Source: Austropuccinia psidii
Lineage: Eukaryota; Basidiomycota; Pucciniomycetes; Pucciniales; Sphaerophragmiaceae
Reading direction: 5' to 3'
DNA: 64,000 nt
Assembly (NCBI GenBank): GCA_023105745.1
Contig: JALGQZ010000015.1
Span: 1,247,501 to 1,311,500 of the forward strand
Shown: piece by piece, positions 1 through 48,853 of the stretch
Numbering within the stretch: position 1 is the stretch's first letter
Layout of the letters: every line of letters begins with the position of its first letter
Notes under the pieces: generated by a model
Told to the model about the DNA's origin: nothing
The model's database searches: none
Seen by the model: only the letters and a program-made list of their open reading frames with translations
Position numbers and translations under genes: made by a program

Positions 1-1906
1 ATCATTGCCCATTTGTTAATGATTTGGAGTTTCCACCAAGTCCAAACCTAGTGTCCATGTGCTTATCTTAATTTGATCTACCATCTGTTGGCTGATCCGG
101 TGAACAAGATGTTAAATCTTGCTGTTACCAATATGTCTGGTAATTCAAAATCTTCTCTGATAGTTTCAATACCCCTGATGAATTCCATATGGTCATATTC
201 TCCTTTACCACTTAAGTGAGGCCATGCCTTAAGCTTTGGTACTTCTTTCAACAGTGCTTGGCCAATTGATTGGTCCAAGTTATGGAAAGAGGTGGAAAAT
301 TCATTCTTTGGTTGTGAATTTTATACATAAAATAATTGTGGGTTGGAAATTCTTGTACCCTCATTTTGATTCAGAGGTGTAGAAATTTATGGTAAGGTGT
401 GCAGTAATTGCTCAATATCCTCCATTTTACTGTTGCTACACCTTTGAGAATTTCTAAACTCATCATAGAAACTTTTTATTAAGTTTATTACTTCAATTTT
501 ATACCTATCTTCCTTATGTGTTAATTCTTGCCATAATTCAGTCTGTCTAGTATTATCAGAAATGACTTTATTAAACTTCATTGTCAATTTTGATACTTCC
601 TGTTATGAGGTGTCAAAACATTTTTCTTTACTTCAGTAAATGAATTTGAAATATAATCAAGAGCTTTCTTATTATCTTCTTTGATCATTTTTTTGGCTTG
701 TTTTATTCTTGTTTCACTTATTTAATCAAGATTTAATGTAGAATATTTGTCTGTTAATTCTATAATAATGGCAGATTGTTCATTCAGCTTATTTCCAAAT
801 GAATTGTCATTATTAAAAGCTTTAATGGTTCTTAAATTTTTCTCAAAACACACAAGTGTCTCATTTCTTTTGCTCAGACTTAAATTATTTGTTTTAAGAT
901 TGTTACAAATTGATGAATTTTTATCAGAAATATGACTCTTTATGTCATTTATAGCTATGTACAAGTTTGTAATGCCATCCGGAATATCAATAATAATTGC
1001 TGATATTTTAGTCTGTCTTCCTCATTTTTCTGTAATTTCATCATTTTTCTGGCCATCTGAAAGACATTTTCCATGGCATCCTACTGAATCTTTGGGATTC
1101 TGTAGCGCTGGCTGCAAGGTCTTTTAGCTGGTGCTTTTCCTTTGCCCTTGTTCTCAGCTTGTGGCTGCTTTTTCATGTTGGAATTGCATCTGCTGGCTAC
1201 TGGGGATGTTTTTGGCACTTGCTTGGGTGGTGGAGGGTTGTTTTGCCTCCATTCTGCTGCTAAAAGCATCATGTTTTTCTTTTCCATCAATGGATGCTAT
1301 ACATTGAGTAACTTGCAAGTGTTGGGATGGGCAAGGAATTTCCTCACAGTCAGGTAAGAATTCCTGCAGTTTTTCCACAAATAGGCAAGGCTCTGGTACT
1401 CTTTGTGCAGCGATTAACTGTTGTATGCCTTCTGGCTGGCTTTTTAAATGTCCACTGAGGCTTCTTGAGGCGGTTTCAGCTCTGTTTGAAGGTAAAACAG
1501 TATTATCAGCTGCAGGATGGCATAATTTGTCAGTTTGGCATTCATTTGCCAACCCTTGTTCTTCTGTAACTGATTGCCTTCTGCCATAATCACTTCTATG
1601 ACCTTTTTTGAGAGCTGCCTGAGGATTTTTAGCTGGCTCCTGATCTGGTTGAAGGCATATCTATGATTAAAAAGCTTGAAAATATTAATTTTACATCAAA
1701 AAACTTACTATTGGGTGAGTTTTTTGCCTTATGAAGGGTATTATCTATGTACAAGTTAATGAATTCAGAAGTAACTGGCTCTGGTTGGTTGTTCTGACTT
1801 ATAATAGCTGTGCTATTATAATCAGAATTGGCAGTACTTGCAGGAATAATGCTAGTAACTGTTGATGCAGTTTCCATATTTTCTTGTCTTACCACATTGT
1901 CAGACA
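1..1906 (-). pseudogene. Degenerate Ty3/Gypsy gag region (old element, 5' part)
   Basis: This is a Gag relic read leftward. At about 65-278 it encodes a stretch with LKEVPKLKAWP and GEYDHMEF that aligns with [11 protein letters not shown] and GEYDHMSF in the intact Gypsy copy at 40909. Further on, a frame gives WWKLQIINKWA, against [11 protein letters not shown]. Upstream pieces at 1081-1290 and 1154-1552 overlap in different frames. The first ends in RYRIPKIQ, the counterpart of SYRIPRIQ in the accessory frame of the younger elements. The 5'-most exon appears to begin at 1906, after a ttaag acceptor, with residues SDN. Several stops and frameshifts mean no protein is expected. Pol of this element would lie beyond the left edge. 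The family is distinct from, but related to, the element at 3883-14489. Confidence 0.75.
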
Positions 1907-9713: not shown

Positions 9714-11780
9714 TTACTCTTCTGGTTCTTTTTCAGAGTCAGATTCCTCCTCTTTGTCTTTGTGGTTTTCTATTTCCACAATTTCATTAATCTTTGCCAT
9801 TTTGAGGCAATTATTGGCTAAATTTCCAATAACTCCACATTTATGGCATTTTCTTTGCTCACTATTGTTGGATGTATTGGGTTTGAAAGATTCTTTTGAT
9901 TTATCTTTTTTGATAAATGGTTTATTTGGACTTTTAATGTCCAATTTCTTCCAAGTCCTGCCAATTTTTATTCTTGTCACTATGTCTTCTAGTGCATTAA
10001 TATACTCTTCTGTGGAGCATGGTTCTATACACCTGCTTCTTATGGCATGTTCTAGCTCTCCTCCACATTTTTTAAGTATTTTCACATGCACAATTTTTTG
10101 TGACATTTCGGGGTACGATGCATTAAGCTTTTCAACTTGTTTTAAGAACCAAGTTAAAGGTTTGTCCTTGTCTGGGTCAAAGAAAGAATTTTCAAATGCA
10201 TTTTCTATTTTGTACCTCCAGGCATCATTAGCCCATTTGGTGATTATTTCGTGTTTCCACCAAGACAAGGTATTTTTGCCATTTGTTTGCCTTATACCGT
10301 AATACCATCTTTTTGCAGATTTTTCAAACAATGAATGTAATCTTGCAGTGATCAATTCATCTGGTATGGCATAATATTCTTGTAGCATGTCAATTGTTTT
10401 GCTAAATGACATGTGGTCATATTCACCTTCTCCTGTTAATGTTGGCCATTCTTTTAATTGAGGTGCTTCCTTCATTATGACTTGGTTATTGTCTTGGTGA
10501 CTCAAGTCTGTTATGAATGGATTTGTTGTTTCCTCTTTTGGTTTAACAGGGCTTCTTATGTGAGAAAATGGTGTTGATAACTTTGGAATATTTGCGTTAG
10601 CCTCATTAATTTTATTCATTTTTTCAGTAATAAGCCTTATTTCACTTTGAATGTCATCTTTCAGATGCATTCTTGCTTCATCACTCTTTTCTACATGGTC
10701 CAAAAGTAATTTTTGGTGTGAGAAAGTCTTTTCTTCAAATTCTTCTACATAAATGCTCAATTTGTTTAATTTTTCTATAAGATTATCAATACTCACATCA
10801 TAATTGATTGTCAAAGTTTTTTCTTTGAGATCACTTATGTATTTGTACAACTCTTGTTGTCCTTGTATTAATTTCTTAGTATTTTCAATTAATATTTTTG
10901 GTTTGTTATTTTCAATCATAAATTTTATGTTATCAATTTCTTTTTTATTTTGTACAACGAGTTTTGTTAAAGATGATAAGATATTATTTATTTATTGGAA
11001 AGATAATAAACTATTTTTAATGTCTTTAAGAGGTAAAATACTATTTTTAATTTCTGTTAAAGTATTTAAAACATCAGGAGACAAGGTTATTTCTTTGGGA
11101 AATGGGGTCGTATCATTCTTTGTTCCTCTTTGTCTTTGAATTCCATCAAAGTTCTGGCCATGTTGAAGAAATTGTCCATGGCATCTTTTTAGATTTTGGG
11201 GATCCTGTAGCTTGGGGAATATGGTTTTCTCCAATTCTTTTTCTTGTTCTTCTTCCCTTCTTGGGGAAGTGAGTTGGCTTGGGGCTTGCTGGTAGAAGCT
11301 ACTGAGGCTTCTTCCTTGGTTGCCTCCTTCTTTTTGGCATGATACTCCTTGATATTTTTGATTTGAGGTTTGGATGATAGTGGATTCCATCCATTGGAGT
11401 ATCTCACTATTTCCTCCTCCTTGAGGAACCTTTTCAGGATGTGCCAGGAGTTCATCACTCCTTGGTGTATTTGGGGCAACATTTCCCAATCTTTGTCCTT
11501 TTACACTGTGTAGTACTGTTTGTACTGGCTCATGTAGATGTCTATTTGAGCCCTCTGAATGTGATTTGTACCTGTTTGAGTCACTCATACTGAGTTCCAA
11601 TTCAGGTTCAGATATCATGGGCATTTCTGGGACTTGCCTTTGGAATAAGGCACTTCCTTGTGTGGATTCTGTTCCACTGGGGATATTGCCCTTCCCTTTC
11701 CCTTTTGAGGAATCAATTCTACCTCTGAGTCCAGCTCCATCTGATTGGATGGAGTATTGGGAGCCTCTTCTGGTAGTCAT
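9714..11780 (-). pseudogene. Gypsy copy A Gag, broken
   Basis: Gag is the structural protein of the retrotransposon particle. It starts at ATG 11780 ([10 protein letters not shown]), is open to 10992, and is then broken and continues at 10919-9714. The second part has coiled-coil-like Asn/Lys/Leu repeats (NLIEKLNKLS), the capsid-like core [16 protein letters not shown], and a zinc knuckle CHKCGVIGNLANNC. The knuckle's usual His is replaced by Asn (GIGHLANNC in copy B), so metal binding is doubtful. The first 690 nt overlap the accessory reading frame, and the ATG falls inside that frame's intron 1. Confidence 0.88.
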
Positions 11781-12007
11781 TTTATAAGAAAAATAAGAAA
11801 TAAGAGGATTTCAGAGCAGGAATTCTTCTTATGGCAATTTATAAATGAGGTACTAACCTTCAGAGTCCTGAATAATGGGTCCTGGAAAGTCCAATTTCTT
11901 GGCTTTCTTTTTTTTGGTAATTATTGGTGTTGGAGAACTTTGACAAGTTTCTTCCACCAATCTTTCAACAGTGGTTTGGTTGTCCTCTGTTGGGTTGTCT
12001 TCAAACA
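11087..12007 (-). pseudogene. Spliced accessory frame of Gypsy copy A
   Basis: This is the counterpart of the accessory gene in copy B (40684-41602). Exon 1 is 12007-11858 (starting [10 protein letters not shown] after a ttttag acceptor). Intron 1 is 11857-11770 (GTTAGT...CAG). Exon 2 is 11769-11638. Intron 2 is 11637-11572, a 66-nt GC-AG intron (GCAAGT...ACAG). Exon 3 is 11571-11087. The frame carries the KKKKAKK basic cluster, GWNPLSS and SYRIPKI, then one stop shortly after SYRIPKI. Over 97 codons of exon 3 I count about 8 mostly conservative differences from copy B, against about 16 in the overlapping Gag frame. Splicing is inferred from sequence only. Confidence 0.6.
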
Positions 12008-24279: not shown

Positions 24280-24843
24280 TGTGGAATTTCCTGACCCTAA
24301 ACGTACTAGGTCAGAACCATACTGACCACTCCTGTCCCAAAACTTCCCTAATGGTTAATTAAAAAGTGCAATACCACCACTAATCACTTTCTTACCTTTT
24401 AGGTACCGTGCATCATCCAATGACTCCGCCTCGGGTCTACGATGAAGCTACATGATATAAACCCCCTCTGCGTCCAAAACCATGAGGAGGTTATACAACA
24501 AACTCCTTCCTTCTTTATTTTCCTCCTTATAAGTTTACTCTCCTTAGCACGCCTGTGTTACTTAATTTTTATTATCATTATTTATTTCTACTTAATCTTT
24601 CCTTAATAAACTATTTTTTCAAAAGCGCAAAAGGTATAGTAAAAGCTTCCTTTTGTAATTGATGAACATCCCACTGACTCATACTCCAGTCAGTGCCGTT
24701 AGTCCTTTACTATTGTATTACTGTTGCATAGTATCTCTTATCGTTGTAACACTGCTCTTCACCTTCAGGTAAACTTGTCCTTTTAATGCCTTGCTTAAGT
24801 ATCTTTGTTAATGTAATCCACCTTCAGTTCTTAAATTTTATCA
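24280..24843 (+). repeat. Copia 5' LTR
   Basis: The LTR runs TGTGGAATTTCC...TTTTATCA. A TATA box (TATAAA) is at 24456-24461. It retains CpGs at tccgcctcgggtctacgat that are TpG/CpA in the 3' LTR. Confidence 0.93.
24456..24461 (+). promoter_or_regulatory. TATA box in copia 5' LTR
   Basis: The sequence is TATAAA within catgatataaacc, about 180 bp into the LTR, and it is conserved in the 3' LTR. It would drive the genomic transcript. Confidence 0.6.
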
Positions 24844-24905
24844 GATTTACAGTCTCGAAGTCTCTAATAAAAAACAAGGACAGGTGGACAGCAGAAATAT
24901 CAACA

Positions 24906-27900
24906 ATGACTGAAAAGAAATCAGAAACCAAAGAAATCAACATACCGATTCTTGATGGGACCAATTTCAGTCAATGGCACATATGCATGAAGATACATTT
25001 GAGATTGAAAGACCTACTTGACGTCTGCAAAAAAACACTCACTGAAGACGCGATAACTACAGTCAGAAATAAATGGAATAAAGCAAGCTATGAAGCTATT
25101 AGCATCATAACCTCTAGTATCAATGAAAGAGTCTTTCTAGAGGTAATCAACCCCAAAAACACTGAACACGCCAACTTACTTTGGTCAAAAATCAAGGAGC
25201 AATATGCCTCAGTTCGTTCGGTAAACAGGGGAAGGATATGGATGGATTGGCAAAGATGCTTCTACAATGGCAACTTACAATCCTACATTGATACTTGCAG
25301 GAAACTCCTTCTCGAACTCGAATCAGTCAGCATCAAAGTTCCGAATGCACTTCTTTTGTACTCCCTTCTTGGAAAACTAGCTGGAGACTTGAAACTTCAT
25401 CAGTTCATCGAATCACTTACCTCTAATGAAGAACTTATTGAGAAACCTGACCCCATACTTACCCGTCTCCAAGACTATGTCCATCTTTCTCTAAGTGAAT
25501 TACCAAAACCTCTTCCTAACTCCTCTGCGTCTGCACTTGTCTCTGCCTCAAATGATAATTTCAAGATTATTTATTACTGTACCAATGGAAAACACAACTT
25601 GAAAAATACCAGTCACAGGAAGGATCAATGCTGGGCAGAAAACCCTCACCTCAGACCAAATCAAAATAACAACAAGAAAAGAAAGACTGATTCAAGTGCC
25701 CATCTATCAATAGTCAAAGCTTTAATCACTATGGTTGACAGCCCACCAAAAGATCAAATATTGTTGGACTGTGGCGCAACACATCATATGTTCAATTCCC
25801 AAAAATTCTTCACCTCCTTAACCAACTCTGCTCCAATCGACGTCTCCACTTGAGACTCAATCAGCTCTTTAACAGACTTCGGAGTAGGAACCGCCAACCT
25901 AATCTGCAAAAACAAGGTTTTAACTCTGAGCGACTGCCTTTACATTCCAAATATCAAGTGCAATCTAATCAGTTTACTAGCATTGTTCAAAAACAAATTA
26001 ATCATCAATCAATGCAGAAATAAATTTGATCTTGAAACAAATGGAAAAGTAATTGCCAATGGAAGAATTGTAAACAGATTAATGTACATTGATTATACTC
26101 TACCAACAACTCACCTCACTACTAGCCAGGACAGCCTCTGGCACAACAGACTGGGCCATCCTGGCAAAGCAGTTCTTGAAAGGCTTGGACTCCCCACCTA
26201 CAAATCCAAATGCACAGTATGTGCACTCAACAAGGCACATAAACAACCATTTTCAAAAAGCTTTGAAGAAGCCAGAAACCCACTTGATTGCATTCACCTC
26301 GACGTAGTTGGCCCAATCCATCCAATCTCCATCTCTGGATTTCAATATTTTCTGACAATCGTAGATCAGGCAACATCTTTTAAAATAGTAAAATTTTTAA
26401 AAAAGAAATCCAATGCCTTTGAAGAATTCTGTTCATCAAAGAATTTTATGGAAAATCAGCAAAATAAAAAGGTTAAAAAGGTAGTATCAGATCGAGGAGG
26501 AGAGTTCCTGAACAAGGACTTCAATCAATTGGCCAAAGATTGTGGCTTCCTACACTTCTTCTCACCACCCAAAACCCCACAGCACAACGGGTTTGCTGAA
26601 AGGGCAAACAGAACAATACTCGACAAAACGAGATGCCTTTTGGGATCAAGTCATCTACCAAACAACTATTGGGCAGAAGCTGTCAACACAGCAGTACTCT
26701 TATCGAACCTATCACCCAACCAATCAACGGACATCTCATCGCCTCACCAACGTTGGACTGGATCAGCTCCAACAATTCACCGTCTTAAAACCTTTGGCTG
26801 CCAAGCCTTCATTACCTTACCCCGACATCATTGTTCATGGAAATTGGGTCCATCAGCAATTGAGGGCATTCTTCTTGGTTATGAAAACGGCAATACTTCG
26901 TATCGCATATTGCGCCTTAATGATCTAAAAGTAGCAGTCACGAAACACACCACGTTCAATGAAGAATGGTTTCCCGCGGTACAAAGGCACGAAGAGGAAG
27001 AACTGATCATTCCCATGCAAGAAACCTCTGCAGCCGTTGAGGAAGAATTCTCAGAAGAAACAAAGGAAGATTCAATGCAGTCAACCCTGGTAGATGAAAC
27101 CCAGGTGACTGAAAGTCAAGAGCTTCCTTCAGACACGGTAGATGAAGTGTATGATAGGAGATTCTCTTTGACAGAAAACTCCAATCACCCTACTGTTACC
27201 TGCATCAGAGTCATTGGTCCTTGTCATCCAACCATGATACGCTCTGAAATCGATCACATCAATATCTTACCCTACCCAAGAAGAGAAAATACTCACTTAA
27301 CAATGGTCAACAGGACCCCTTGCACTTACCAAGAGGCCCTGAAAGCTCCAGACAAGGACCTCTGGGTAGCTGCAATCAACAAAGAATTGAATGCAATGAA
27401 ACAACTCAAAGTATGGGACCTGGTACTGCGACAAAAGTCTTACAAAATGATAGGTACCACATGGGTGTTCAAAATCAAAAACAACCCATCGAATGGAACA
27501 AGTGAATTCAAGGCACGTTTATGCGCACAAGGTTTCTCTCAAACACAGGGAATAGATTACGGAAAAACATACGCGCCTACTGGAAGACTTAACTCACTCA
27601 GGGCACTAATTGCTTTTGCAGCAGTGCACAGCTTACAATTCCATCAGATTGACGTTAAGAGTGCATTTCTTAATGCCCCTCTGACCGAAGAAGTTTTTCT
27701 CAACATTCCACAAGGCCTGGATGCAAACAAGCAGACTCACTGCCTAAAGCTGAACAAAGCCATTTACGGTGTCAAGCAAGCCCCACTGGCTTGGTATAAA
27801 TGTCTTAACGACTGGCTGATCAGTGTGAAATTTGAACCTTGCATATTAGATCCTTGTGTATTTCACAGGTTGCTAGACCCACCGATCTGGTTGTATCTAC

Positions 27901-28916
27901 ACGTGGACAGCATTGGGATATTCAGCAAGAATGTGATGTTATTCAAGAAAGAGATAGCTACAAGATTTGAAATAAAGGATCTTGGAGAAGCGGATCTCAT
28001 GCTTGGAGTAAGAATTGAGCATGGAAACAACGCAATCACTCTGGACCAACAGCATTTCACCGAGTCACTCCTCAACCAGTATGGCATGACCAACTGTAAA
28101 CCAGCTTCTACACCCTTGGTTCCAAATGATCACCTCAGCCACGCCACAGACGAAGAAAAAGCCAAATTTGAAGTGTTAGGGGTAAACTTTTGCAGCGCTG
28201 TGGGTAGCATCAATTACCTCAGAAGCGCTACACGACCGGACCTTTCCTTTGCTGTAAGTACCTTGTCCCAATACCTAGAGAATCCCGGCATATGCCACTG
28301 GCAAGCCTTTCAACACGTACTTCGCTACCTAAAGGGGACTCAAGATGTTGGTATCACCTATCACAAAGGAGAAATAAGTGGCATCGTCTCATGGAGCAAT
28401 GCTGACTGGGGCAATTGTCGGGCAACATGCCAATCAGTCTCAGGTTTTCTCACCACATTTAATGGCTGCTTAATACTTTGGAAGACCAGGAAACAATCAT
28501 CCGTCTCCACCTCAACTTCAGAAGCCGAATACAAGGCACTTTGTGACTTAACATCTGAGCTTCTCTGGCTGAAGCAATGGTGCGTAGAAGCACGTCTGTT
28601 TGCTTGTGAGCTCCCAATCACCGTCTGGGATGACAACCAAAACTGCATCAATACCGCAAACAGTGATTGCAACTTCAACAACAAACAAATGAAGCATGTG
28701 GACATCCAGTTGCACTTCATCAAAGAGGTGGTTAAATCATCTGTGATCTCTCTCAAGTACACGCCATCTTCTGAAATGATGGCGGAATTCTTAACCAAGT
28801 CTGTCAACCACATAGTGCTAACGCGTGCTCTTAACACTTTGGGCATTTTGCGAATAGGAGTGAGGGGGGATGTGGAATTTCCTGACCCTAAACGTACTAG
28901 GTCAAAACCATACTGA
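24906..28916 (+). pseudogene. Copia Gag-Pol polyprotein with one in-frame TGA
   Basis: The polyprotein is in one frame from ATG 24906 (MTEKKSETKE; upstream codons lie in the LTR) to 28916, just inside the 3' LTR. Gag holds FSQWHICMKIHLRLKDLL and a partial zinc knuckle (CTNGKHN...H...C). Protease has LLDCGATHH (Asp near residue 288). Integrase has HNRLGHPGK, a Cys pair, and Asp 466, Asp 529 and Glu 565 (35 residues between the last two; HNGFAERANRT). RT has DVKSAFLNAPL, but the YVDD box reads HVDS (residues 999-1002). RNase H has ADWGNC and STSEAEYKAL. A TGA at 25851-25853 divides it between protease and integrase, in the same frame on both sides. The stop and the altered RT box suggest a recently dead copy. 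Confidence 0.93.
28854..28870 (+). other. Copia polypurine tract
   Basis: The purine run ataggagtgagggggga lies directly before the 3' LTR start TGTGGAA. This is the expected plus-strand priming site. Confidence 0.8.
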
Positions 28917-29433
28917 CCACTCCTGTCCCAAAACTTCCCTAATGGTTAATTAAAAAGTGCAATACCGCCACTAACCACTTTCTTACCTTTTAGGTACCGT
29001 GCATCATCCAATGATTCCACCTTGGGTCTACAATGAAGTTACATGATATAAACCTCCTCTGCGTCCAAAACCATGAGGAGGTTATACAGCAAACTCCTTC
29101 CTTCTTTATTTTCCTCCTTATAAGTTTACTCTCCTTAGCACGCCTGTGTTACTTTATTTTTATTATCATCATTTCTTTCTACTTAATCTTTCCTTAATAA
29201 ACTATTATTCGAAAGCGCAAAAGGTATAGTAAAAGCTTCCTTTTGTAATTGATGAACATCCCACTGACTCATACTCCAGTCAGTGCCATTAGTCTTTTAC
29301 TATTGTATTACTGTTGCATAGTATCTCTTATCGTTGTAACACTGCTCTTCACCTTCAGGTAAACTTGTCCTTTTAATGCCTTGCTTAAGTATCTTTGTTA
29401 ATGTAATCCACCTTCAGTTCTTAAATTTTATCA
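28871..29433 (+). repeat. Copia 3' LTR
   Basis: This LTR is a partner of 24280-24843. Its differences from the 5' LTR are mainly transitions. Three CpGs in one 25-bp stretch of the 5' LTR (near 24424-24445) read CA, TG and CA here. Confidence 0.93.
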
Positions 29434-35316: not shown

Positions 35317-36484
35317 TGGAAGATAACTTCATACCACTTGAAAGCCAGTCACAGGCCAACATACCAGTGACACCCTCACAACCAGAGGGTAGCAAAGGGA
35401 AAGGAAAGAGGCACAGTGAAAGCCTTATCACTGCAAAGAAGTGGACACCTATTGCCACCCAGAAGAGTTGAAAACCACAAAATTCTGCTTCAATACAAGG
35501 TAAACCAACCTTAACAGCTTGTACAGGGAAAATTACTATAATTAACCCAGTTGTAACCTCTAAAGGTAACTGGCCCAAATCAGCAGACAACCAATTTGTA
35601 CAAGGTACAGTCAAAGGTAGATACCCTAGGAACATAAAGTTTTTGACTGCTTTCAAACACTGACATTTCACCTGTATACCTCAAAGACCTTGGCTTTGAA
35701 AGGAACCAACCAGAGGACAGAGAAGGATTGTCCAGAACCAGAAGACCTGGAAGAGGAAACCTTGGACACAGTGGTGAATGGAAAAACAATGAGGGAGATA
35801 ATATCAACCTTGCCATTCACACTCCATTTCAAAAGGAACATCAAACCAGAGGACTGGAAAGACATGGATCAAGTTCTTCAGCTCCACCAACTCCTCAAAG
35901 ATTTATTTCAATGGAGCATGGACAACAAGAGGTTCAACCTGGCATCTCACTGGGCAGAACTTGGAGCAAGTTGCCAGAAGATCTGTCTCAAAAAGATAGA
36001 CTTCAAGGACCTTATGGTAATCACCAAAGGTTGGAATCCTACCAGGCAGTTCAGACTCCTGAAGCCAAGGGCAACCAGGATAAGGGAGAATCAAGCTACT
36101 CTCCAAGCTATAGAAGAACAGCTGACCCAGACAGGGCATACTCAGATTCCTTCAGGCTCACAAGGAGCAGGCTAAATCAGCTCTCCAGTGGCTTCACGCC
36201 ATTCAGAAACCAGAAGATCAGTGGCTAAGAGTCACCATTCTTCACAATTCCAGGAAGTTTCAAGGAGAAGACAAGGAAACAAGGGCAAAAAGAAGACCTC
36301 CTTCAACCAGCAGATCAGTGGCTAAGAGTCACCATTCTTCATAATTACAGGTTGTTTCCAGGAGAAGACAAGGACACAACGGAAAAAAGAAGACCTCCTT
36401 CAACCAGAGGAAGAGAGAGTCAGACCCAATGATCCAGAAGATGTTGGATTTGGTGAAAGAAGTGCACAAGAACCAGAAGTAGCT
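35317..36484 (+). pseudogene. Accessory frame of Gypsy copy C (overlaps gag 5' part)
   Basis: The first exon starts at 35317 after a gattcag acceptor, with residues EDNFIPLESQ, parallel to [10 protein letters not shown] in copy B. A donor AAG|GTAAAC at 35500 ends it in the same phase as in copy B. The main frame, 35703-36175, carries EDWKDMDQVLQLHQ and ITKGWNP, matching [10 protein letters not shown] and SNGWNP of copy B, then KPRATRIREN. It breaks at a TAA (36173) and continues, after a 97-bp tandem duplication, in the frame with GKKKTSF and SDPMIQKMLDLVKE, ending at 36484. The frame shift equals the remainder of 97 divided by 3, so the frame was continuous before the duplication. The acceptor of the second exon is not settled. 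Confidence 0.55.
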
Positions 36485-38148: not shown

Positions 38149-40177
38149 TGTGAGCCTTTGAGATATGACCACATACCCAATAAGGTCACAAAAAATACTC
38201 AGAATAATTATACCTTTAATATAATTATATTAAAATTAATTAGAATAATTATACACTAAAAATAATTACTCAAATATACAAAAAATACCATAAATTGGTA
38301 CTAAAATTGGTTTAACTTAAAAACCAATGAATGAAAATGTGAAATAAATTATACCATTGGATTCCCCATGGAAAAATACACATATACCATTTTTATGGCA
38401 TATCTGTAAAGCCAATATTTAAGGAATTATAAGGTACAATACCTTATAAAAACCATAAAAACTCATTTATCTCAGAAACTAATGAAACAACATGTGAAAT
38501 AAATTGTACCAGTGGACTCTCCACAAAAATTCCACATATAAAACAATTAATAAGCTAATTCCCAAAATCAATACTTAAGGAATTATCCTGAATATATGCA
38601 CTTTTTTGGTCAACGCATATATTCAGTGATCATAGCTAATATCTTCTAAACTATACATGCTAGAATGATGAACCAAAAATAAAGTTACCACGTAATTACT
38701 GTACAAACACAGATATGAACTTTATTTTGCAAATTATAAACAAGGTTAAGACTTATGAGGAAATATTGATAAAAATCAACAGAGCTGTTGACCACTTTGT
38801 TGTGAAAGTAGTCCAAACTTAAAAAAAAGTATACAGTTGGATTCTCCTAGTTCATTCGTGAAGAATGTTGTAATTTTTATTATTAAATTCAGGGTATAAC
38901 CCCCTGAAATCAAGGTTTGAAGTTTAAAATATTGAATTTCGACAGAAAAGATGAGTTACAAGAAAAATCATCAAAATTAGAGTTTTGATGATGTAATGAA
39001 AAGCTCTTGGAAGCATAATGAGGTTATGTCAGGCTATCAGAATTCACTCTCTGAATTGCTGTAGCGTGAAAACCTTAAAAGTTATTGAGGATCAAAGTTT
39101 GAGCTTAAATTGAGCTGTTATGATCACATACTGTAACCTTAAATTAAGTTTAACAGTCTTAATAGTGATAAAATTGGTGAATACTATTAGTTTATGATTA
39201 AAACTAATAAAATCCACGAAATTTGGGGTTCTGCCAAGCCTCTGATGTCATCACAATTAGAGTTATAGTGATAACTCTAAATAATGGTGTAATAATGATG
39301 TAATATGGTTTGATCATGATGTAATCACCCTCAAACCTTAAAATATTGATCAATTCCAGTGGATATGATCAGTAAACGTCTACTAGAAGCCTGTTGGACT
39401 CTAGGAGGGAGGTATTTACTATAAATAGAGCTCTTTTTACTCTGTTTTCCCCTCAGACGCATCAAAAAACATTAAATCAATTAAACCAAAGGTAATTTCT
39501 TTATTCTTTATATATAAAACTGTTATATTATTAAAGACCAAAGACCACCTTGCTATAATCATCTATTTTGACGTGATTAAATCATTTATTTAATTGTTTT
39601 TGTTAAAAATCTCTCTAAAAACTCATTTCCACGTAAAATCAAGAAATTTAGTAATTTTCTTTATTTTTTATTGTAAATACAATTTGAAAAAGTTGTATTA
39701 TATTCTTTTGGCGTAAAATATCTCAAAATTATTATTTTAAGTGTTAAAAGTAGGTTATTTCATCTTATTATAATAATTTCTCTCTTATTATTACTCTTAA
39801 TAATTCTTAATTAATATAAATAGTATTTATATTAATATATAACTTTAATATTAGTAATATTATTGTTATTAATTGTTTTTTATTTATAAAAAACAGTTTT
39901 TTACGCCTTTATTATTTGTTGGTAACAATAATAAAGAGCTTTATAATATATTAATATTTTTATATTAATATATTATTTATAATATTATAATTTCATATAA
40001 TATTAATTTATATTATTATATTTATTTAATAATATAATATTTTTACGCCATAATAATAATATTTCTTTATTATTATTATTATTTTAATCTTATTTACTTT
40101 AATTATAAGGACATTCAGAGTACAATAAGTAATAAATTAGTAATTTTTTACTTATTGTTTCATAGTCAAACCTTACA
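38149..40177 (+). repeat. 5' LTR of Gypsy copy B
   Basis: The LTR runs from TGTGAGCC to CTTACA. The TATA box TATAAATAG is at 39420-39428. The downstream 750 nt (R/U5) are extremely AT-rich, with a handful of CpG motifs: gacgtgatt, cacgtaaaat, ggcgtaaaat, tacgcctttat and tacgccataat. Confidence 0.95.
39420..39428 (+). promoter_or_regulatory. TATA box, Gypsy copy B 5' LTR
   Basis: TATAAATAG, followed by agctctttttactctg, is conserved in all LTRs of this family. Transcription would start shortly downstream, in R. Confidence 0.7.
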
Positions 40178-40179
40178 TT

Positions 40180-40193
40180 TGGGGGCCTGGCCG
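40180..40193 (+). other. Primer-binding site of Gypsy copy B
   Basis: TGGGGGCCTGGCCG lies two bases after the LTR end. It is the same as in copy A and, with one extra T before it, copy C. Confidence 0.75.
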
Positions 40194-40683
40194 TGATATT
40201 TACTTAAAAGACCTTTAAAAAGATTCTATTTGGGTTTATCCAATAATAAATTATATTTATAATCATAAAATTATATAATAATTTTATATTTTATTGATTT
40301 TAAAAGCTATTGAGGCATTTGGAAAGCAATTGTACTGTCTTACACGTGGTTTTTCACATCCTTAGACTTGCAAGAACTTTCTTTGAGTGACTCTAGTGAT
40401 TAAAAAAGATAATTTATAAATTAAAAATAATTTTTATTATAATTTAATTTTATAAGAATCATATTCATTTTTTATTTTATTCTTTAAAAATAAAAATATA
40501 CATAAAAAATATTAAAAAATATTAAAAACCAATAAAAAAAGTTATTTTTATTCATTTTTATTCATTTCTTTATTTATTTCATTTTTTTTAAGATATAAAA
40601 GCAATTTCTACGTGGAAAATTGCCATATCTTGCCAAAAATAACACTTCTTATAAAAAGACTTATATTTATTTGTCTTTTTTAG

Positions 40684-41602
40684 TGTTTGAAGATAACCCA
40701 ACAGAAGACAACCAAGCTACTGTTGAGAGATTGGTGGAAGAAACTTGTCAAAGTTCTCCAACACCAGTTATCACCAAAAGAAAGAAAGCTAAGAAATTAG
40801 ACTTTCCAGGGCCCACCATTCAAGACTCTGAAGGTGAGCACCTCTTTTTAAATTGCCATAAAAGAATTTTATTCTAAAAATACTTTTATTTTTTCTTATT
40901 CTTTAATTATGACTACCAGAAGAGGTTCCCAATACTCCATCCAATCAGATGGAGCTGGACTCAGAAGTAGAATTGATCCCTCAAAAGGGAAAAGAAAGGG
41001 CAATATCCCCAGTGGAACAGAATCCACACAAGGAAGTGCCTTATCCCAAAGGCAAGTCCCAGAAATGCCCATGATATCTGAGCCTGAATTGGAACTAAGT
41101 ATGAGTAACTCAAACAGGTACAAATCACATTCAGAGGGCTCAAATAGACATCTACATGAGCCAGTACAAGCAGTATTACACAGTATACAAGGACAAAGAC
41201 TGGGAAATGCTGCCTCAAATACACCAAGGAGTGATGAACTCCTGGCACATCCTGAAAAAGTTCCTCAAAGAGGAGGAGATAGTGAGATACTCCAATGGAT
41301 GGAATCCACTGTCATCCAAACCTCAAATCAAAAAAATCAAGGATTATCATGCCAAAAAGAGGGAGGCAACCAAGGAAGAAGCCCCAGTAGCTTCTACCAG
41401 CAAGCCTCAAGCCAACCCACTTCCCCAAGAAGGGAAGAAGAACAAGAAAAAGCATTGGAGGAAACCATATTCCCCAAGCTACAGAATCCCAAGAATCCAA
41501 AAGGATGCCATGGACAATGTTTTCAACATGGCCAGAACCTTGATGGAATTCAAGGACAAGGAAGAGCAAAGAATGAGACAACCTCATTTCCCAAAGAAAT
41601 AA
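40684..41602 (+). CDS. Spliced accessory protein overlapping gag (predicted)
   Basis: Exon 1 is 40684-40833 (acceptor tcttttttag before it; [10 protein letters not shown], basic cluster TKRKKAKK; donor GAAG|GTGAGC). Intron 1 is 40834-40919, ending ctaccag. Exon 2 is 40920-41051 ([20 protein letters not shown]). Intron 2 is 41052-41117, 66 nt with AG|GCAAGT donor and caaacag acceptor; unspliced it would add in-frame stops. Exon 3 is 41118-41602 ([35 protein letters not shown]). All phases fit. The protein is about 255 residues, acidic then strongly basic, with two NLS-like clusters. It overlaps Gag in another frame from 40920 on. The first codon is split (xTG), and any upstream exon is unknown. 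The same structure is in copy A, and the motifs recur in copy C and in part in the 1-1906 relic. Function unknown; a nuclear or RNA-binding role is a guess. Confidence 0.6.
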
Positions 41603-44600
41603 CCTTGTCCAAAGATGTTGTAAATACTTTAACAGAAATTAAAAATAGTATATTACCTCTAAAAGAAATTAAAGACAGTTTATTATCACTACAAGAAATA
41701 AATAACAATTTATCTTCTTTAACAAAAATTGTTGTACAAAACAAGAAAGAAATTGACAACATTAAGTTTATTGTTGAAAATAATAAACCAAAAAATTTAA
41801 TTGACAATACTCAAAAATTAATACAAGGACAACAAGAATTGTATAAATACATAAAAGATATCAAAGATAAGACTTTGACAATCAATTATGATGTGAGTAT
41901 TGACAATCTTACAGAAAAATTAAATAAATTAAGTATTTCTGTAGAAAAATTTGAAGAAAAGACTTCATCACACCAAAAATTACTTTTGGACCATGTGGAA
42001 AAAAGTGATGAAGCAAGAATGCATCTGAAAGATGATATTCAAAGTGAAATAAGGCTTATTACAGAAAAAATGGATAAAATTAATGAGGCTAATTTAAATA
42101 TGCCAAAGTTATCAACACCATTTTCTCATATAAGAAGCCCTATTAAAACAAAAGAGGAATTGTCAAATCCTTTCATAACAGACTTGAGTCACCAAGATAA
42201 TAACCAAGTCTTAATGAAGGAAGCACCTCAACTGAAAGAATGGCCAACATTCACAGGAGAAGGTGAATATGACCACATGTCATTCATTAAAACAATTGAC
42301 ATGTTACAAGAAGATTATGCCATACCAGATGAATTAATCACTGCAAGATTACATTCTTTGTTTGAGAAATCTGCAAAAAGATGGTATTATGGCATAAGAC
42401 AAACAAATGGTAAAAATACCTGGTCTTGGTGGAAACAAGAAATAATCACCAAGTGGGCAAATGATGCCTGGAGGTATAAGATAGAAAATGCATTTGAAAA
42501 CTCTTTCTTTGACCCAGAGAAAGATAAACCTTTAACTTGGTTCCTAAAACAAGTTGAAAGGCTTAATGCACTGTACCCAGAAATGTCACAGAAGATGGTG
42601 CATATGAAAATACTTAAAAAATGTGGAGGGGAACTAGAACATGCCCTAAGAAGCAGGTGTATAGAACCATGCTCCACAGAAGAGTATATAAATGCACTAG
42701 AAGATATAGTGACAAGAACAAAAATTGGCAGGACTTGGAAAAAATTGGACATTAAAAGCCCAAATAAACCATTTATCAAGAAAGATAAATCAAAAGAATC
42801 CTTCAAACCCAATACATCCAACAATAATGAGCAAAGAAAATGCCATAAATGTGGAGGTATTGGACACTTAGCCAATAATTGCCTTAAAAAAGCAAAGATT
42901 AATGAAATTGTGGAAACAGAAAACCACAATGACAAAGAAGAAGAATCTGACTCTGAAAAAGAGACAGAAGAATCAGAAAGCTCTGAAAGTGATGAAATCA
43001 ATATAATTAATGCACAAATTAATAATATTGATATAATTTATGAAGTACTGGATGTTAACTCAAACTTGCCACAAGTTGGAACATCTGACACAAATCTGAC
43101 AAACATACAAGATGCCAAAATGTATAGAACCAAACCTGCAAGAGGAATGGGATATACAGCTGGAAAATCAAGTATTAGTATTGTTATGGTTGATAACCAA
43201 GAAGGAAAGGTTAACTTAGATACAGGAGCATATTGCACCTGTGTTGGCAAAAATTATTTAAAAACCATTGTCCCAGACTGGCAAGAAAAACTTATGCCAA
43301 TACAAGGTGTCAAATTTAGTAGTGCAAGTGAGAGCATGAAGCCCCTTGGAATAATTGATTTAACACTAATTTTTCCTCATCCCTCACAATGTGTCAGAAT
43401 CAAAGTAGAGTTTGTAGTAATGGACAACTGTACTAGTAATCATTTCATACTTGGAAATGACTACTTATCAATCTATGGTATAGATATCTCCAACCAAAAG
43501 GATAGATATTTTACCATAGGAGATAATAAAAGACAAAAGTTTGGATTCTTAAATAACAAAAAACAAATCACAGTTATTAAGAATGAGGAAAAAATTCCAG
43601 AAAAAGAACTTTTTATATCTGAACAACTCAAAGAGGCAGAATTCAATCAAGAATTAACAGAAAAAATGAAAGAAAAAATGATTGACCTCTTATTTAAGTA
43701 TAAAAATGCCTTTGCAACTGACAAAGAGCCACTAGGTGCCATAATTGGACATGAAGTGGATATAATTCTTAATGTAGAAAAACCTTACCCACCTTTATTA
43801 AGAAGACCTGCTTATCCAGCCAGTCCAAGAGCTAGAGAAGCCCTAGAGGTGCACATTAAAGAATTAATGGACCTTGGAGTATTAAGAAAGGTTGGACATA
43901 ATGAGCAAGTAGAAGTTACTACACCTGTCATTATAACTTGGCATAATGGAAAATCAAGGATGGTAGGAGACTTCAGAGCCCTGAATACCTATACCATTCC
44001 AGACAGATATCCAATACCCAGAATCCATGAGACATTGACCCAATTGTCACAAGCTAAGTTCATCACAGCTATGGATGCTCTTAAGGGTTTTCATCAAAAT
44101 GTCTTAACAGACAATGCCAAGAAACTACTAAGAATAATAGTCCATTGTGGAATTTTTGAATACTTAAGAATGCCATTTGGGATAAAAAATGCACCTTCCC
44201 ATTATCAAAGAATGATGAATACCATATTTCCTGAAGAATTATCAGAAGGATGGTTAATAATCTACATTGATGATATCATAGTTTGCTCAGAAACTTGGGA
44301 AAATCACCTGACAAGACTAGAAAGGGTACTACAGAAAATAGTCCAAGTAAATATGAAAATTTCATTGAAAAAGTGTCATTTTGCATATAGTGAATTGAAA
44401 GCCCTAGGACATGTAGTATCTGGACTTAGTCTAGGCATAGACAAAAATAAAGTAGCAGCAGTACTACTTAAACCAATGCCTCAAAGTAAAAAAGAAATGC
44501 AATCATTTCTAGGATTTGCTGGTTACTATAGACAGCATATAAAGGACTTTGCAAAGATTGCTAAATCCTTGTATAAGCTATGTGACCAACAAACAGTCTA

Positions 44601-45252
44601 TGAGATGACAGAAGAAAGAGTCAAGGCATATGAAGAATTGAAAAATTCTTTAACAAATGCCCCATTTCTTCTAATGCCAGACTGGGAAATACCTTTCAAA
44701 CTGTACATTGATGCTTGTGGAGAAGGACTAGGTGCTGCACTTCACCAAACACAAATTATCAATGATAAACCAGTGGAAGGACCAATTTGTTTCATTTCAA
44801 GGCAGATAAAGCCAACAGAAGCAAGGTATGGAGCAAGCCAAATGGAATGCCTATGCCTAGTGTGGGCTTTAGAAAAGCTGCATTATTATTTGGATGGCAC
44901 AGTATTTGATGTAATCACAGACTGTAATGCTGTGAAATCACTATTAAATATGAAGACTCCAAATAGACATATGCTGAGATGGCAAATTGCTATCCAAGAA
45001 TATAGGGGAAATATGACTATTGTTCATAAATCTGGAAATATTCATAAAAATGCAGATGGTCTTAGCAGATGGGCTCTAGCAAATACCCCTGACAATCCAG
45101 CATGGGTACCACAAGAAGAGCACCATATAGAAGGAATATGTGTTACAGACATTGGCACAGAATTCTTTAACCAAGTTAAAGAAAGCTATAAGATAGACAA
45201 AAATTGCCATATCTTAAGCCAACTTCTAATGAAAGACTGCAAAGAACCATAA
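40909..45252 (+). CDS. Gag-protease-RT-RNase H polyprotein, Gypsy copy B
   Basis: This 1447-codon frame starts at ATG 40909, which lies in the last 11 nt of the accessory gene's intron 1, so only unspliced RNA would encode it. Residues 1-230 overlap the accessory frame and are Ser/Gln-rich. Residues 235-390 are coiled-coil-like. The capsid-like core holds GEYDHMSF and a WKKLDIKSP linker. The zinc knuckle [14 protein letters not shown] is at 645-658. Protease Asp is at 771 (LDTGAYC). RT has GDFRALNTY and YIDD at 1119-1122. RNase H starts near 1265 ([16 protein letters not shown]) with the downstream [17 protein letters not shown]. The frame ends in a TAA (45250) just before integrase, in the same frame. 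Gag and Pol are fused, so no Gag-Pol frameshift is needed. Confidence 0.92.
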
Positions 45253-46707
45253 CTTTCATCAAGACTAGATGAAACATGGAAAAAGGCATATGATGAAGGA
45301 AGATTCCACCTTCTTGATGGAATCCATTTCCACAGAACAAAACACACATGTGTTATGGCCTTAACAGACAGAACACTAATAAACACTATTTTACATGAGT
45401 GTCATGATAGTGTTGCATCTGGACATCTCTCAGAAGATAGGACACTAGAGAGGGTGAAAACCTGCTCTTGGTGGCCAAATTGGAAGAAAGATGTTGCAGA
45501 GTACTGCCAAACCTGTGACAGATGCCAAAAAGCCAACAGAGCCACAGGAAAGAAATTTGGAATGATGATCCAAATCCAAGAACCAAAATCCCCATGGGAA
45601 ATAGTTCATATGGATTGGGTAACAGCCTTACCTCCAGGAGGAGACAGGAGTTATAATGCATGCCTAGTGCTAGTTGACAGATACAGCAAAACTCCCATGT
45701 TCTTACCATGTCATAAAGATGACACAGCTATGGATACAGCCATAATGATATGGAATAAAGTCATTAGCCATACAGGCTTATTCCAAAATATTATAAGTGA
45801 CAGAGACCCAAAGTTCACTTCAGCATTATGGACAAATCTCCATAACCTGTTTGGGACAAAGTTATCATTCTCAACAGCTTATCATCCTCAAACTGATGGT
45901 TTAGCAGAAAGAATGATACAGACCCTAGAGGACATGATCAGAAGATTCTGTGCTTATGGGCTAGAATTCAAAGATTCTGATGGTTTTACCCATGATTGGT
46001 GTACACTAATACCAGCACTTGAATTGGCATATAAGACATCAATCCATTCTTCTACTGGCAAAACACCAGCAATGCTAGAGAAAGGTTGGAATCCAAGACT
46101 TCCTTATGATACCCTCAAAAAGGACTTAGTGGATATACATCCAACAGCAAGCAGCTTCAAGATAATGCTTGACAAAGCAAGACACCATGCAAACAGATGC
46201 ATGCAAGATTCTTTTAAATATGCAAAAGAAAGATGGGATAAAAGTCATAAGCCACCTGATTTCAAAATAGGGGACTTGGTTTTAGTATCAACCCTTAATT
46301 TCAATAACATAAAAGGCCCAAAGAAATTGAAAGATTCCTTTGCAGGACCATTTATGATAAAAGCACTTCATGGACCCAATGCTGTGCAATTGGAACTCAC
46401 AGGTGAACTAATGAACAAACACCCAACTTTCCCTGTAAGTCTGATAAAACCTTACAGTTCAAGTGACAAGGAGTTATTTCCACTAAGAAATAAACCCCCA
46501 CTTGAGATTCCCCCCTTGGAAGAAGGAGAGGAAAAGAAAATAGTAAAAGTCCTTAAAGAAAGAAGGACAAGAAAGAAAAAAGAAAGAGAATACCTTGTAA
46601 GGTATAAGAATTCAACTCAAGAAGATGAATGGCTACTTGAGAAAGATATAACAAATGCTGATAAACTACTAAGAAGGTTCAGACATGAAAGAAAACCTGA
46701 AAAATAA
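45253..46707 (+). CDS. Integrase with chromodomain-like C-terminus, Gypsy copy B
   Basis: This is a direct continuation of the previous frame after one TAA. The first ATG is at 45355, but homologous codons begin at 45253. It has a zinc domain (HECHDSVASGH then CQTCDRC), the catalytic triad Asp (45613, HMDWV), Asp (45799, ISDRDPKF) and Glu (45907, TDGLAERMIQ) with 35 residues between the last two, and a GPF motif (GPY/F-like, KLKDSFAGPFM). The tail reads REYLVRYKN and EDEWLLEKDI, typical of the chromodomain that targets chromoviruses to heterochromatin, though degenerate. If the TAA is not read through, the ATG-initiated product would lack part of the N-terminal domain. Confidence 0.9.
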   Translation, partial: LSSRLDETWKKAYDEGRFHLLDGIHFHRTKHTCVMALTDRTLINTILHECHDSVASGHLSEDRTLERVKTCSWWPNWKKDVAEYCQTCDRCQKANRATGKKFGMMIQIQEPKSPWEIVHMDWVTALPPGGDRSYNACLVLVDRYSKTPMFLPCHKDDTAMDTAIMIWNKVISHTGLFQNIISDRDPKFTSALWTNLHNLFGTKLSFSTAYHPQTDGLAERMIQTLEDMIRRFCAYGLEFKDSDGFTHDWCTLIPALELAYKTSIHSSTGKTPAMLEKGWNPRLPYDTLKKDLVDIHPTASSFKIMLDKARHHANRCMQDSFKYAKERWDKSHKPPDFKIGDLVLVSTLNFNNIKGPKKLKDSFAGPFMIKALHGPNAVQLELTGELMNKHPTFPVSLIKPYSSSDKELFPLRNKPPLEIPPLEEGEEKKIVKVLKERRTRKKKEREYLVRYKNSTQEDEWLLEKDITNADKLLRRFRHERKPEK

Positions 46708-46812
46708 AAAAGTTAAGCATTATTGAGCTTCAAGACTAACAAAGTCTATTGAAGAGGTAGGACAGTGGATGATACCCTAATCACATATATCAGATTGTGG
46801 TACAATCTTTTT

Positions 46813-46825
46813 TGGTGGTAGGGAA
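46813..46825 (+). other. Polypurine tract, Gypsy copy B
   Basis: The sequence ggtggtagggaa immediately precedes the 3' LTR TGTGAG. It is identical in copy A. Confidence 0.8.
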
Positions 46826-48853
46826 TGTGAGCCTTTGAGATATGAACACATACCCAATAAGGTCACAAAAAATACTCAGAATAATTATACCTTTAATATA
46901 ATTATATTAGAATTAATTAGAATAATTATACACTAAAAATAATTACTCAAATATACAAAAAATACCATAAATTGGTACTAAAATTGGTTTAACTTAAAAA
47001 CCAATGAATGAACATGCGAAATAAATTATACCATTGGATTCCCCATGGAAAAATACACATATACCATTTTTATGGCATATCTGTAAAGCCAATATTTAAG
47101 GAATTATAAGGTACAATACCTTATAAAAACCATAAAAACTTATTTATCTCAGAAACTAATGAAACAACATGTAAAATAAATTGTACCAGTGGATTCCCCA
47201 CAAAATTCCACATATAAAACAATTAATAAGCTAATTCCCAAAATCAATACTTAAGGAATTATCCTGAATATATGCACTTTTTTGGTCAACGCATATATTC
47301 AGTGATCATAGCTAATATCTTCTAAACTATACATGCTAGAATGATGAACCAAAAATAAAGTTACCACGTAATTACTGTAGGAACACAGATATGAACTTTA
47401 TTTTTCAAATTATAAACAAGGTTAAGACTTATGAGGAAATATTGATAAAAATCAACAGAGCTGTTGACCACTTTGTTGTGAAAGTAGTCCAAACTTAAAA
47501 AAAAGTATACAGTTGGATTCTCCTAGCTCATTAGTGAAGAATGTTGTAATTTTTATTATTAAATTCAGGGTATAACCCCCTGAAATCAAGGTTTGAAGTT
47601 TAAAATATTGAATTTCGACAGAAAAGATGAGTTACAAGAAAAATCATCAAAATTAGAGTTTTGATGATGTAATGAAAAGCTCTTGGCAGCATAATAAGGT
47701 TATGTCAGGCTATCAGAATGCACTCTCTGAATTGCTGTAGCGTGAAAACCTTAAAAGTTATTGAGGATCAAAGTTTGAGCTTAAATTGAGCTGTTATGAT
47801 CACATACTGTAACCTTAAATTAAGTTTAACAGTCTTAATAGTGATAAAATTGGTGAATACTATTAGTTTATGATTAAAACTAATAAAATCCACGAAATTT
47901 GGGGTTCTGCCAAGCCTCTGATGTCATCACAATTAGAGTTATAGTGATAACTCTAAATAATGGTGTAATAATGATGTAATATGGTTTGATCATGATGTAA
48001 TCACCCTCAAACCTTAAAATATTGATCAATTCCAGTGGATATGATCAGCACACGTCTACTAGAAGCCTGTTGGACTCTAGGAGGGAGGTATTTACTATAA
48101 ATAGAGCTCTTTTTACTCTGTTTTCCCCTCAGACGCATCAAAAAACATTAAATCAATTAAACCAAAGGTAATTTCTTTATTCTTTATATATAAAACTGTT
48201 ATATTATTAAAGACCAAAGACCACCTTGCTATAATCATCTATTTTGACGTGATTAAATCATTTATTTAATTGTTTTTGTTAAAAATCTCTCTAAAAACTC
48301 ATTTCCACGTAAAATCAAGAAATTTAGTAATTTTCTTTATTTTTTATTGTAAATACAATTTGAAAAAGTTGTATTATATTCTTTTGGCGTAAAATATCTC
48401 AAAATTATTATTTTAAGTGTTAAAAGTAGGTTATTTCATCTTATTATAATAATTTCTCTCTTATTATTACTCTTAATAATTCTTAATTAATATAAATAGT
48501 ATTTATATTAATATATAACTTTAATATTAGTAATATTATTGTTATTAATTGTTTTTTATTTATAAAAAACAGTTTTTTACGCCTTTATTATTTGTTGGTA
48601 ACAATAATAAAGAGCTTTATAATATATTAATTATTTTATATTAATATATTATTTATAATATTATAATTTCATATAATATTAATTTATATTATTATATTTA
48701 TTTAATAATATAATATTTTTACGCCATAATAATAATATTTCTTTATTATTATTATTATTTTAATCTTATTTACTTTAATTATAAGGACATTCAGAGTACA
48801 ATAAGTAATAAATTAGTAATTTTTTACTTATTGTTTCATAGTCAAACCTTACA
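46826..48853 (+). repeat. 3' LTR of Gypsy copy B
   Basis: This LTR is a partner of 38149-40177 and is nearly identical to it. Its TATA box is at 48096-48104. It ends CTTACA before the ACAGT target duplication. Confidence 0.95.

Follow-up and report, generated by a model that had tools for sequence, protein, structure and literature searches.

A second reading frame, probably reached by splicing, overlaps gag in a Ty3/Gypsy retrotransposon of Austropuccinia psidii

Introduction

Why would a reading frame that overlaps gag in a Ty3/Gypsy retrotransposon be held by selection, and how might ribosomes reach it? The question is raised by an element, here called B (approximately 38149-48853), in a window of 64,000 nucleotides (nt) from the rust fungus Austropuccinia psidii (GenBank assembly GCA_023105745.1, contig JALGQZ010000015.1, positions 1,247,501 to 1,311,500 of the forward strand), to which all coordinates below refer. 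A first-pass annotation had proposed that the frame of 41118-41602 overlaps gag and is linked in phase to two upstream exons by two introns. In B, both frames are kept, the same layout recurs in other families of the window, and the leader ahead of gag is free of ATG. We consider it likely, all things weighed, that one DNA here gives two proteins, chosen by splicing or its omission; judged from sequence, the second is most likely an accessory protein of the retroviral kind, translated from spliced RNA.

Results

Both proposals concerning B hold: the +1 frame is open over 41105-41602, and a GT-AG intron of 86 nt and a GC-AG intron of 66 nt join three exons in phase into one open frame. The putative second gene consists of the following parts (a slash marks an exon boundary throughout).

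40684..40833, + strand: exon 1 of the second gene; first codon xTG, with x expected from an upstream exon
40834..40919, + strand: intron 1, GT-AG, 86 nt, GTGAGC..CAG; holds the gag start codon
40909..40911, + strand: gag start codon, inside intron 1, 11 nt 5' of the acceptor; ATG kept in 29 of 30 aligned rows
40920..41051, + strand: exon 2, 132 nt, +1 frame relative to gag
41052..41117, + strand: intron 2, GC-AG, 66 nt, GCAAGT..CAG; takes out +1-frame stops and codes for gag if retained
41118..41602, + strand: exon 3, +1 frame relative to gag, ending at TAA
40658..40683, + strand: acceptor of a proposed upstream intron 0, a pyrimidine-rich tract, TTTTTTAG; the best-kept bins of the leader (98-99%)

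Selection on the hidden frame was assessed in a sample of 31 genome loci of the B lineage (L001 and L009-L038, L009 being copy A of the window), in which L001 alone stands for the eight loci (L001-L008) whose exon 3 equals that of B. Two loci without the 5' part (L014, L027) were dropped and B itself, which was given beforehand and is not a random draw, was added, leaving 30 rows. Variants of a single copy (private) are expected to reflect mostly decay after insertion, those of at least three copies (shared) mostly passage through active elements; those carried by exactly two copies were excluded (37 in exon 3, of which 17 are synonymous and 20 non-synonymous in the hidden frame). B's codons served as background, the Fisher tests assume independent variants, and a variant may seem shared through recurrent CpG decay.

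Over exon 3, the shared variants comprise 19 synonymous, 8 non-synonymous and 0 stop changes in the hidden frame versus 35, 115 and 13 among the private ones (p 3.8e-6), whereas in the gag frame the counts are 6, 21 and 0 versus 44, 109 and 10 (p 0.64). Because the shared variants are mostly synonymous in the hidden frame and not in the gag frame, it is the residues of the hidden protein that are held; those of Gag are not, stops apart. Exon 1 behaves likewise in its own frame (shared 11, 3 and 0; private 10, 40 and 4; p 9.7e-5), as does the gag frame in the region coding for gag only (shared 44, 21 and 0; private 69, 188 and 17; p 2e-9). Changes between copies A and B fall on codon positions 1, 2 and 3 in the proportions 2/2/11 in exon 1 (own frame), 6/5/23 in exon 3 (hidden frame) and 27/20/85 over 41603-43050 (gag frame). 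The first-pass annotation had counted about 8 changes in the hidden frame and about 16 in gag over 97 codons and had taken the former as the more constrained; over the 161 codons of exon 3 we count 13 non-synonymous changes (two of them stops in A) against 28, and the p values above bear out that order. The family alignment that it had suggested as a check likewise speaks for purifying selection on exons 1 and 3, with 0 stops among the shared variants. Purifying selection is therefore supported in precisely those frames that the proposed splicing would join, and family B possesses what marks a retrovirus-like accessory gene: a second coding frame under selection that overlaps another gene.

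The splice sites are kept as well. The donor of intron 1 reads GTGAGT or GTGAGC in 28 of the 30 rows, intron 2 has the donor GCAAGT in 28 and the acceptor CAG or TAG in 25, and the AG/TG edge of exon 1 is preserved in 29. Between A and B, intron 1 has diverged by 0.244 versus 0.045-0.10 for exons 1-3. With donor, gag ATG and acceptor kept around a fast-changing intron 1, and with coding constraint on either side, splicing itself is very probable. As the gag ATG lies within intron 1, its excision would remove the gag start. The length of exon 2 is divisible by three and the split codon has the same phase on both sides, so that skipping of this exon would keep the frame.

Is gag nevertheless translated through the overlap? 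When the amino acids of one frame are fixed, its codons shuffled 2000 times and stops counted in the other frame, the gag frame of the B overlap has 0 stops versus 5.7 expected given the hidden protein (P 0.0005), and that of copy C, which belongs to another family of the window, 0 versus 5.8 (P 0.0005). Three further copies of the C family, selected for having both frames open, have 0 versus 7.7-9.1 expected, and across all 28 C-family rows the overlap holds 0-3 gag-frame stops, still fewer than these expectations. In three control blocks coding for gag only, with gag fixed, the hidden frame shows no depletion of stops (P 0.15, 0.42 and 0.29), and the third frame is depleted in one block (P 0.0125). 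Immediately downstream, at 41605-42012, the gag frame is constrained (shared 16 synonymous and 10 non-synonymous, private 24 and 64; p 0.002); since this stretch ends before 42019, where the following in-frame ATG lies, translation of gag runs through the overlap.

The sequence ahead of gag adds a further element to this arrangement.

39368..40908, + strand: ATG-free stretch of B, comprising the LTR (long terminal repeat) end and the untranslated leader before the gag start codon

It contains 0 ATGs versus 15.6 expected, the minimum in 1000 dinucleotide shuffles being 7, and the first ATG of B after 39368 is that of gag at 40909. TAG occurs there at about half its expected frequency (13 versus 25). 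Exon 1 of B is constrained as coding sequence, yet no ATG lies upstream in its frame. Its edge takes the same form in the other families: CAG/TGGAAGATA in C copies (AG/TG in at least 25 of 28 rows) and AAG/TGTCTGAC in a relic of a third family, R. B, C and R all start this exon with an xTG codon, which a preceding exon with a final A would turn into ATG; from this recurring edge, assembly of the second gene's start codon by splicing (A/TG) appears reasonably probable, and a non-AUG start is possible.

The counterparts of this layout elsewhere in the window are the following.

11087..12007, - strand: copy A; exon 1 approximately 12007-11858, intron 1 11857-11770, exon 2 11769-11638, intron 2 11637-11572, exon 3 11571-11087; decayed
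35317..36175, + strand: copy C, of another family; exon 1 35317-35616, intron 1 35617-35684, place of the gag ATG 35665, +1 frame from 35685; decayed
990..1906, - strand: relic R, of a third family; exon 1 1906-1709, intron 1 1708-1645 (GTAAGT..CCAG), gag ATG 1658-1656, overlapping frame from 1644; low end approximate; several stops

The introns of 88 and 66 nt that had been reported for copy A are present in the A/B alignment. In the C family (30 rows, reduced to 28 after L051 and L054, which are without the 5' part, were dropped), exon 1 measures 300 nt and intron 1 68 nt, with the donor GTAAAT in 25 of 28 rows; the gag ATG is found in 26 of 28 rows, 20 nt 5' of the acceptor, after which the +1 frame runs for 232 codons. 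Exon 1 of this family is constrained too (shared 20 synonymous, 20 non-synonymous and 1 stop; private 30, 115 and 6; p 0.0005). In two of the 30 rows, L049 and L067, the stretch around the exon 1 acceptor seems to be duplicated upstream. Relic R has an exon 1 of 198 nt and a phase-1 intron 1 of 64 nt, with the gag ATG 14 nt 5' of the acceptor. The arrangement of exon 1, intron 1 and overlap is thus found in two diverged families, C and R, besides B, with intron 1 in phase 1 and the gag ATG 11, 20 and 14 nt from the acceptor in B, C and R, respectively. Kinship of the proteins themselves extends less far: the resemblance to the hidden protein of B that had been seen in relic R proves substantial (30% identity, E 2e-18), and the R-family second protein is 35% identical to that of B over 154 residues (profile probability 99.6%). 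The motif DW..HQ..GWNP that copy C had been said to keep does not amount to a significant likeness to B (E 0.023 for one pair; hhalign probability 0.5%, E 0.12), and a profile comparison of the second proteins of C and R is not significant either.

The predicted second protein of B is about 255 residues long; its N-terminal part (exons 1-2) is lysine-rich and acidic, its tail basic and its middle, according to modeling, probably helical. Exon 3 gives 841 protein matches at E ≤ 0.001; all of the 120 matches listed for it, and the 120 listed for R, come from Austropuccinia psidii MF-1. Of the 23 database gene models that match exons 1-2, nine splice out intron 1 at its proposed borders or within about one codon of them, connecting exon 1 with exon 2, and one (P0144) uses intron 2; the rest splice at other places, read through or start later. 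Moreover, nine of the 23 begin exactly at the exon 1 edge with F[E/A/S/V]DN and one begins with MFEDN; among 14 R-type models, picked mainly for length from the 120 listed, five begin at the exon edge and one with MSDN. The MFEDN and MSDN starts could stem from copies in which GTG became ATG. In viral contigs, 14 stretches matched the search pattern, and none codes for a relative of the exon 3 protein.

Could the hidden frame be explained in another way? Ribosomes might scan leakily past the gag ATG to the internal ATG at 41156 and translate the hidden frame from unspliced RNA, exon 1 being something else. Many of the 120 database matches listed are indeed 148 amino acids long, and those of this length that were read start with MSQY, that is, at 41156; however, strong coding constraint marks exon 1 in the very frame with which splicing would connect exon 3, and 41156 is preceded by no fewer than five ATGs (40909, 40949, 41065, 41071 and 41101). 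We regard this route as improbable for the hidden frame as a whole; a product from 41156 could exist as an extra, shorter protein. Exon 1 might also be a separate leader peptide or upstream open reading frame that is never joined to exon 3, since the two exons were tested separately and no RNA joins them here. The absence of any ATG in or upstream of this frame in B, the identical intron phase in three families and the predicted gene models that connect exons 1 and 2 make such a separation decidedly unlikely.

Frameshifting would assign the hidden frame a different role, namely that of the true Gag N-terminus, with a -1 shift at the heptamer C CCA AAG (41590-41596) before the hidden stop. This heptamer follows the X XXY YYZ pattern in the hidden frame and ends one codon 5' of the stop, and gag is constrained directly after it. 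Yet the gag frame is kept open upstream too, within the overlap, in families R and C the hidden protein has a different end, and no stable structure is apparent by eye in the AT-rich DNA 3' of the heptamer, all of which renders this reading very unlikely. Finally, T-poor, A-rich gag sequence might leave few stops in the hidden frame by chance: given gag, just 2.4 are expected in B (P 0.023, weaker than the test on the gag frame) and about 1 in the three C-family copies (P 0.15-0.34). The third-position bias and the excess of synonymous shared variants in exons 3 and 1 contradict chance in family B, although the variant test leaves room for it in family C; overall, we find an accidental open frame scarcely credible. 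The reading that remains preferred is a dual-coded locus in which splicing gives access to the second frame.

A number of observations weigh against this dual-coding interpretation and have to be set beside it. The database gene models are predictions rather than RNA. Within B, exon 2 is by itself too invariant for the variant test, and its only two shared variants both change the hidden protein and leave Gag as it is. A donor for intron 0 was not found among the A/GT candidates of B (including 40129, 40387, 40396 and 40541) or the candidates of C (including 35141, 35223 and 35276), none of which is decisive. Intron 2 is seen in the B lineage only; C lacks it, its frame being open at that place. 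In copy A the hidden frame is interrupted by two stops, corresponding to B 41186 and 41498, and gag likewise by two within the compared stretch 41603-43050 (B 41695 and 42973); with stops in both frames, A is a dead copy and no proof that the hidden frame works. Copy C has a mutated gag ATG, a mutated acceptor (CTCAA) and a stop in exon 1. In the C-family overlap, neither the hidden frame (18 synonymous and 34 non-synonymous shared, 87 and 247 private; p 0.24) nor gag (p 0.22; 0.097 after the overlap) reaches significance, for which reason we consider this sample underpowered, and given gag the hidden frame of the three C-family copies is not unusually open (P 0.27, 0.15 and 0.34). As to the leader, 40178-40908 is free of ATG in four of the 30 B-lineage rows and holds 1-4 ATGs in the other 26, seven columns before the gag ATG have ATG in 3-7 of the 28 C-family rows, and relic R has seven ATGs in the stretch that starts 400 nt 5' of exon 1 and ends at the gag ATG, one of these lying in exon 1 and in its frame. 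The leader ATGs of the other B-lineage rows stand mostly where B has GTG, ATA or ACG (29, 10 and 8 of 56 cases), which fits decay, an ancestral ATG-free state not being proven thereby. Some of these sites have a CpG context, as would fit the cytosine-methylation decay reported in PMC8063080. The protein, lastly, finds no Pfam family above cut-off in its B or R type, no PDB sequence for R and for B two PDB chains at E 0.55-0.58 that we take as chance, and its AlphaFold model for exon 3 (61 sequences) is poor (predicted local distance difference test, pLDDT, 59).

Element B is a Ty3/Gypsy element by its flanking LTRs, its gag and pol, and the order of reverse transcriptase and RNase H before integrase.

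38149..40177, + strand: 5' LTR, 99.0% identical to 46826-48853; left edge approximate (38149 or 38240)
46826..48853, + strand: 3' LTR, the other half of the LTR pair match
40909..45252, + strand: frame of gag, reverse transcriptase (RT) and RNase H; Pfam zinc knuckle, RVT_1 and RT_RNaseH
45253..46707, + strand: integrase frame, the same frame as gag-pol, after an in-frame TAA; Pfam Integrase_H2C2, SH3_Tf2-1 and rve

The first of these coding frames overlaps the second gene over 40920-41602. In a Pfam scan of the element's proteins no protease model matched, and Chromo, the model for the domain that marks chromoviruses at the integrase C-terminus, scored 16.6 bits, below its cut-off (25.1). The LTRs are 99% identical, and all 40 exon 3 genome copies that were scored, out of 359 candidates, equal B over 485 bases, from which we conclude that B is young and stems from a very recent burst. 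The in-frame TAA between RNase H and integrase (45250-45252) is also present in copy A and reflects either leaky readthrough or a fixed defect. B is inserted within element C, whose gag-pol likeness reaches 38131 and restarts at 48869. A separate LTR element at 24280-29433 (LTRs of 564 nt, 97% identical; two long open reading frames) matches the hidden protein only weakly (E 0.02).

Discussion

How might a single DNA be made to yield either protein? On the unspliced genomic RNA, ribosomes would scan an AUG-free leader to the first AUG at 40909 and produce Gag-Pol. In the spliced RNA, intron 1 would be lost together with the gag AUG, the TG of exon 1 would be joined to the final A of an upstream leader exon, thereby creating the start codon of the second protein, and exons 1, 2 and 3 would be read in the other frame. 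Gag and the second protein would consequently be mutually exclusive products, as in complex retroviruses. Of the roles that the second protein may have, we favour that of a nuclear regulator that helps unspliced genomic RNA to exit the nucleus or to escape splicing, in the manner of CERV or Rev. We propose an export role because an element relying on intron retention needs a way to export its unspliced RNA; drawn from analogy, this function is tentative and rather doubtful, packaging or silencing suppression being further possibilities. In its widest form, the model holds that splicing, by deleting the Gag start and building the A/TG of a dual-coded regulator, alone decides between Gag-Pol and regulator, and that this is an old switch common to several families which together helped to inflate the genome to one gigabase. 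We would give this version an even chance.

Accessory proteins made by splicing characterise complex retroviruses and, to our knowledge, seem to be rare among LTR retrotransposons. If the interpretation is right, a fungal case conserved across families would represent a further origin of the complex-retrovirus strategy, and hundreds of "hypothetical proteins" in a published proteome (the 841 matches) would be one retrotransposon gene. It would also offer a clue as to how elements of this kind multiplied in a giant rust genome (1,015,390,075 bases in 84 contigs, 1.015 Gb), for which a large set of copies lends itself to study: two gag queries returned 7442 and 6548 first-look candidates, not all of them verified.

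Among known systems, complex retroviruses of the Rev/Tat type reach overlapping frames by splicing and leave genomic RNA unspliced for Gag-Pol. B differs from them in being a fungal Ty3/Gypsy element with no env recognised, in overlapping the N-terminal part of gag and in having the gag AUG within an intron. In copia, Ogre and EVADE, which are spliced LTR retrotransposons of plants and animals, splicing yields Gag alone or joins pol. B resembles these in that splicing would change which products one element RNA gives, or in what ratio, but here it would give an unrelated protein from an alternative frame. In A. psidii itself, the available portions of PMC8063080 describe a genome of about the same size, more than 90% of which is transposable elements, mostly Gypsy; these belong to the same superfamily as B, and those portions mention neither a second reading frame nor splicing. 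The view of the first-pass annotation that a spliced overlapping gene is undescribed for fungal Gypsy elements agrees with the literature searched, in which no description was found (including the available portions of PMC8063080, PMC12210899 and PMC10309623; subscription papers and repeat-library notes were not covered). The closest counterpart is CERV of the Caenorhabditis LTR retrotransposon Cer1, as far as the accessible part of its description goes (PMC10309623): its multi-exon mRNA is spliced and overlaps gag, the unspliced RNA gives Gag-Pol, and a role in export was shown by mutants in worms. The two proteins are likened by layout. In contrast to CERV, the second protein of B ends inside gag, overlaps it in another frame and has an export role by proposal only; in common with CERV, of which one exon is in a non-gag frame, it would be the protein of an LTR retrotransposon made from a spliced mRNA that overlaps gag (PMC10309623).
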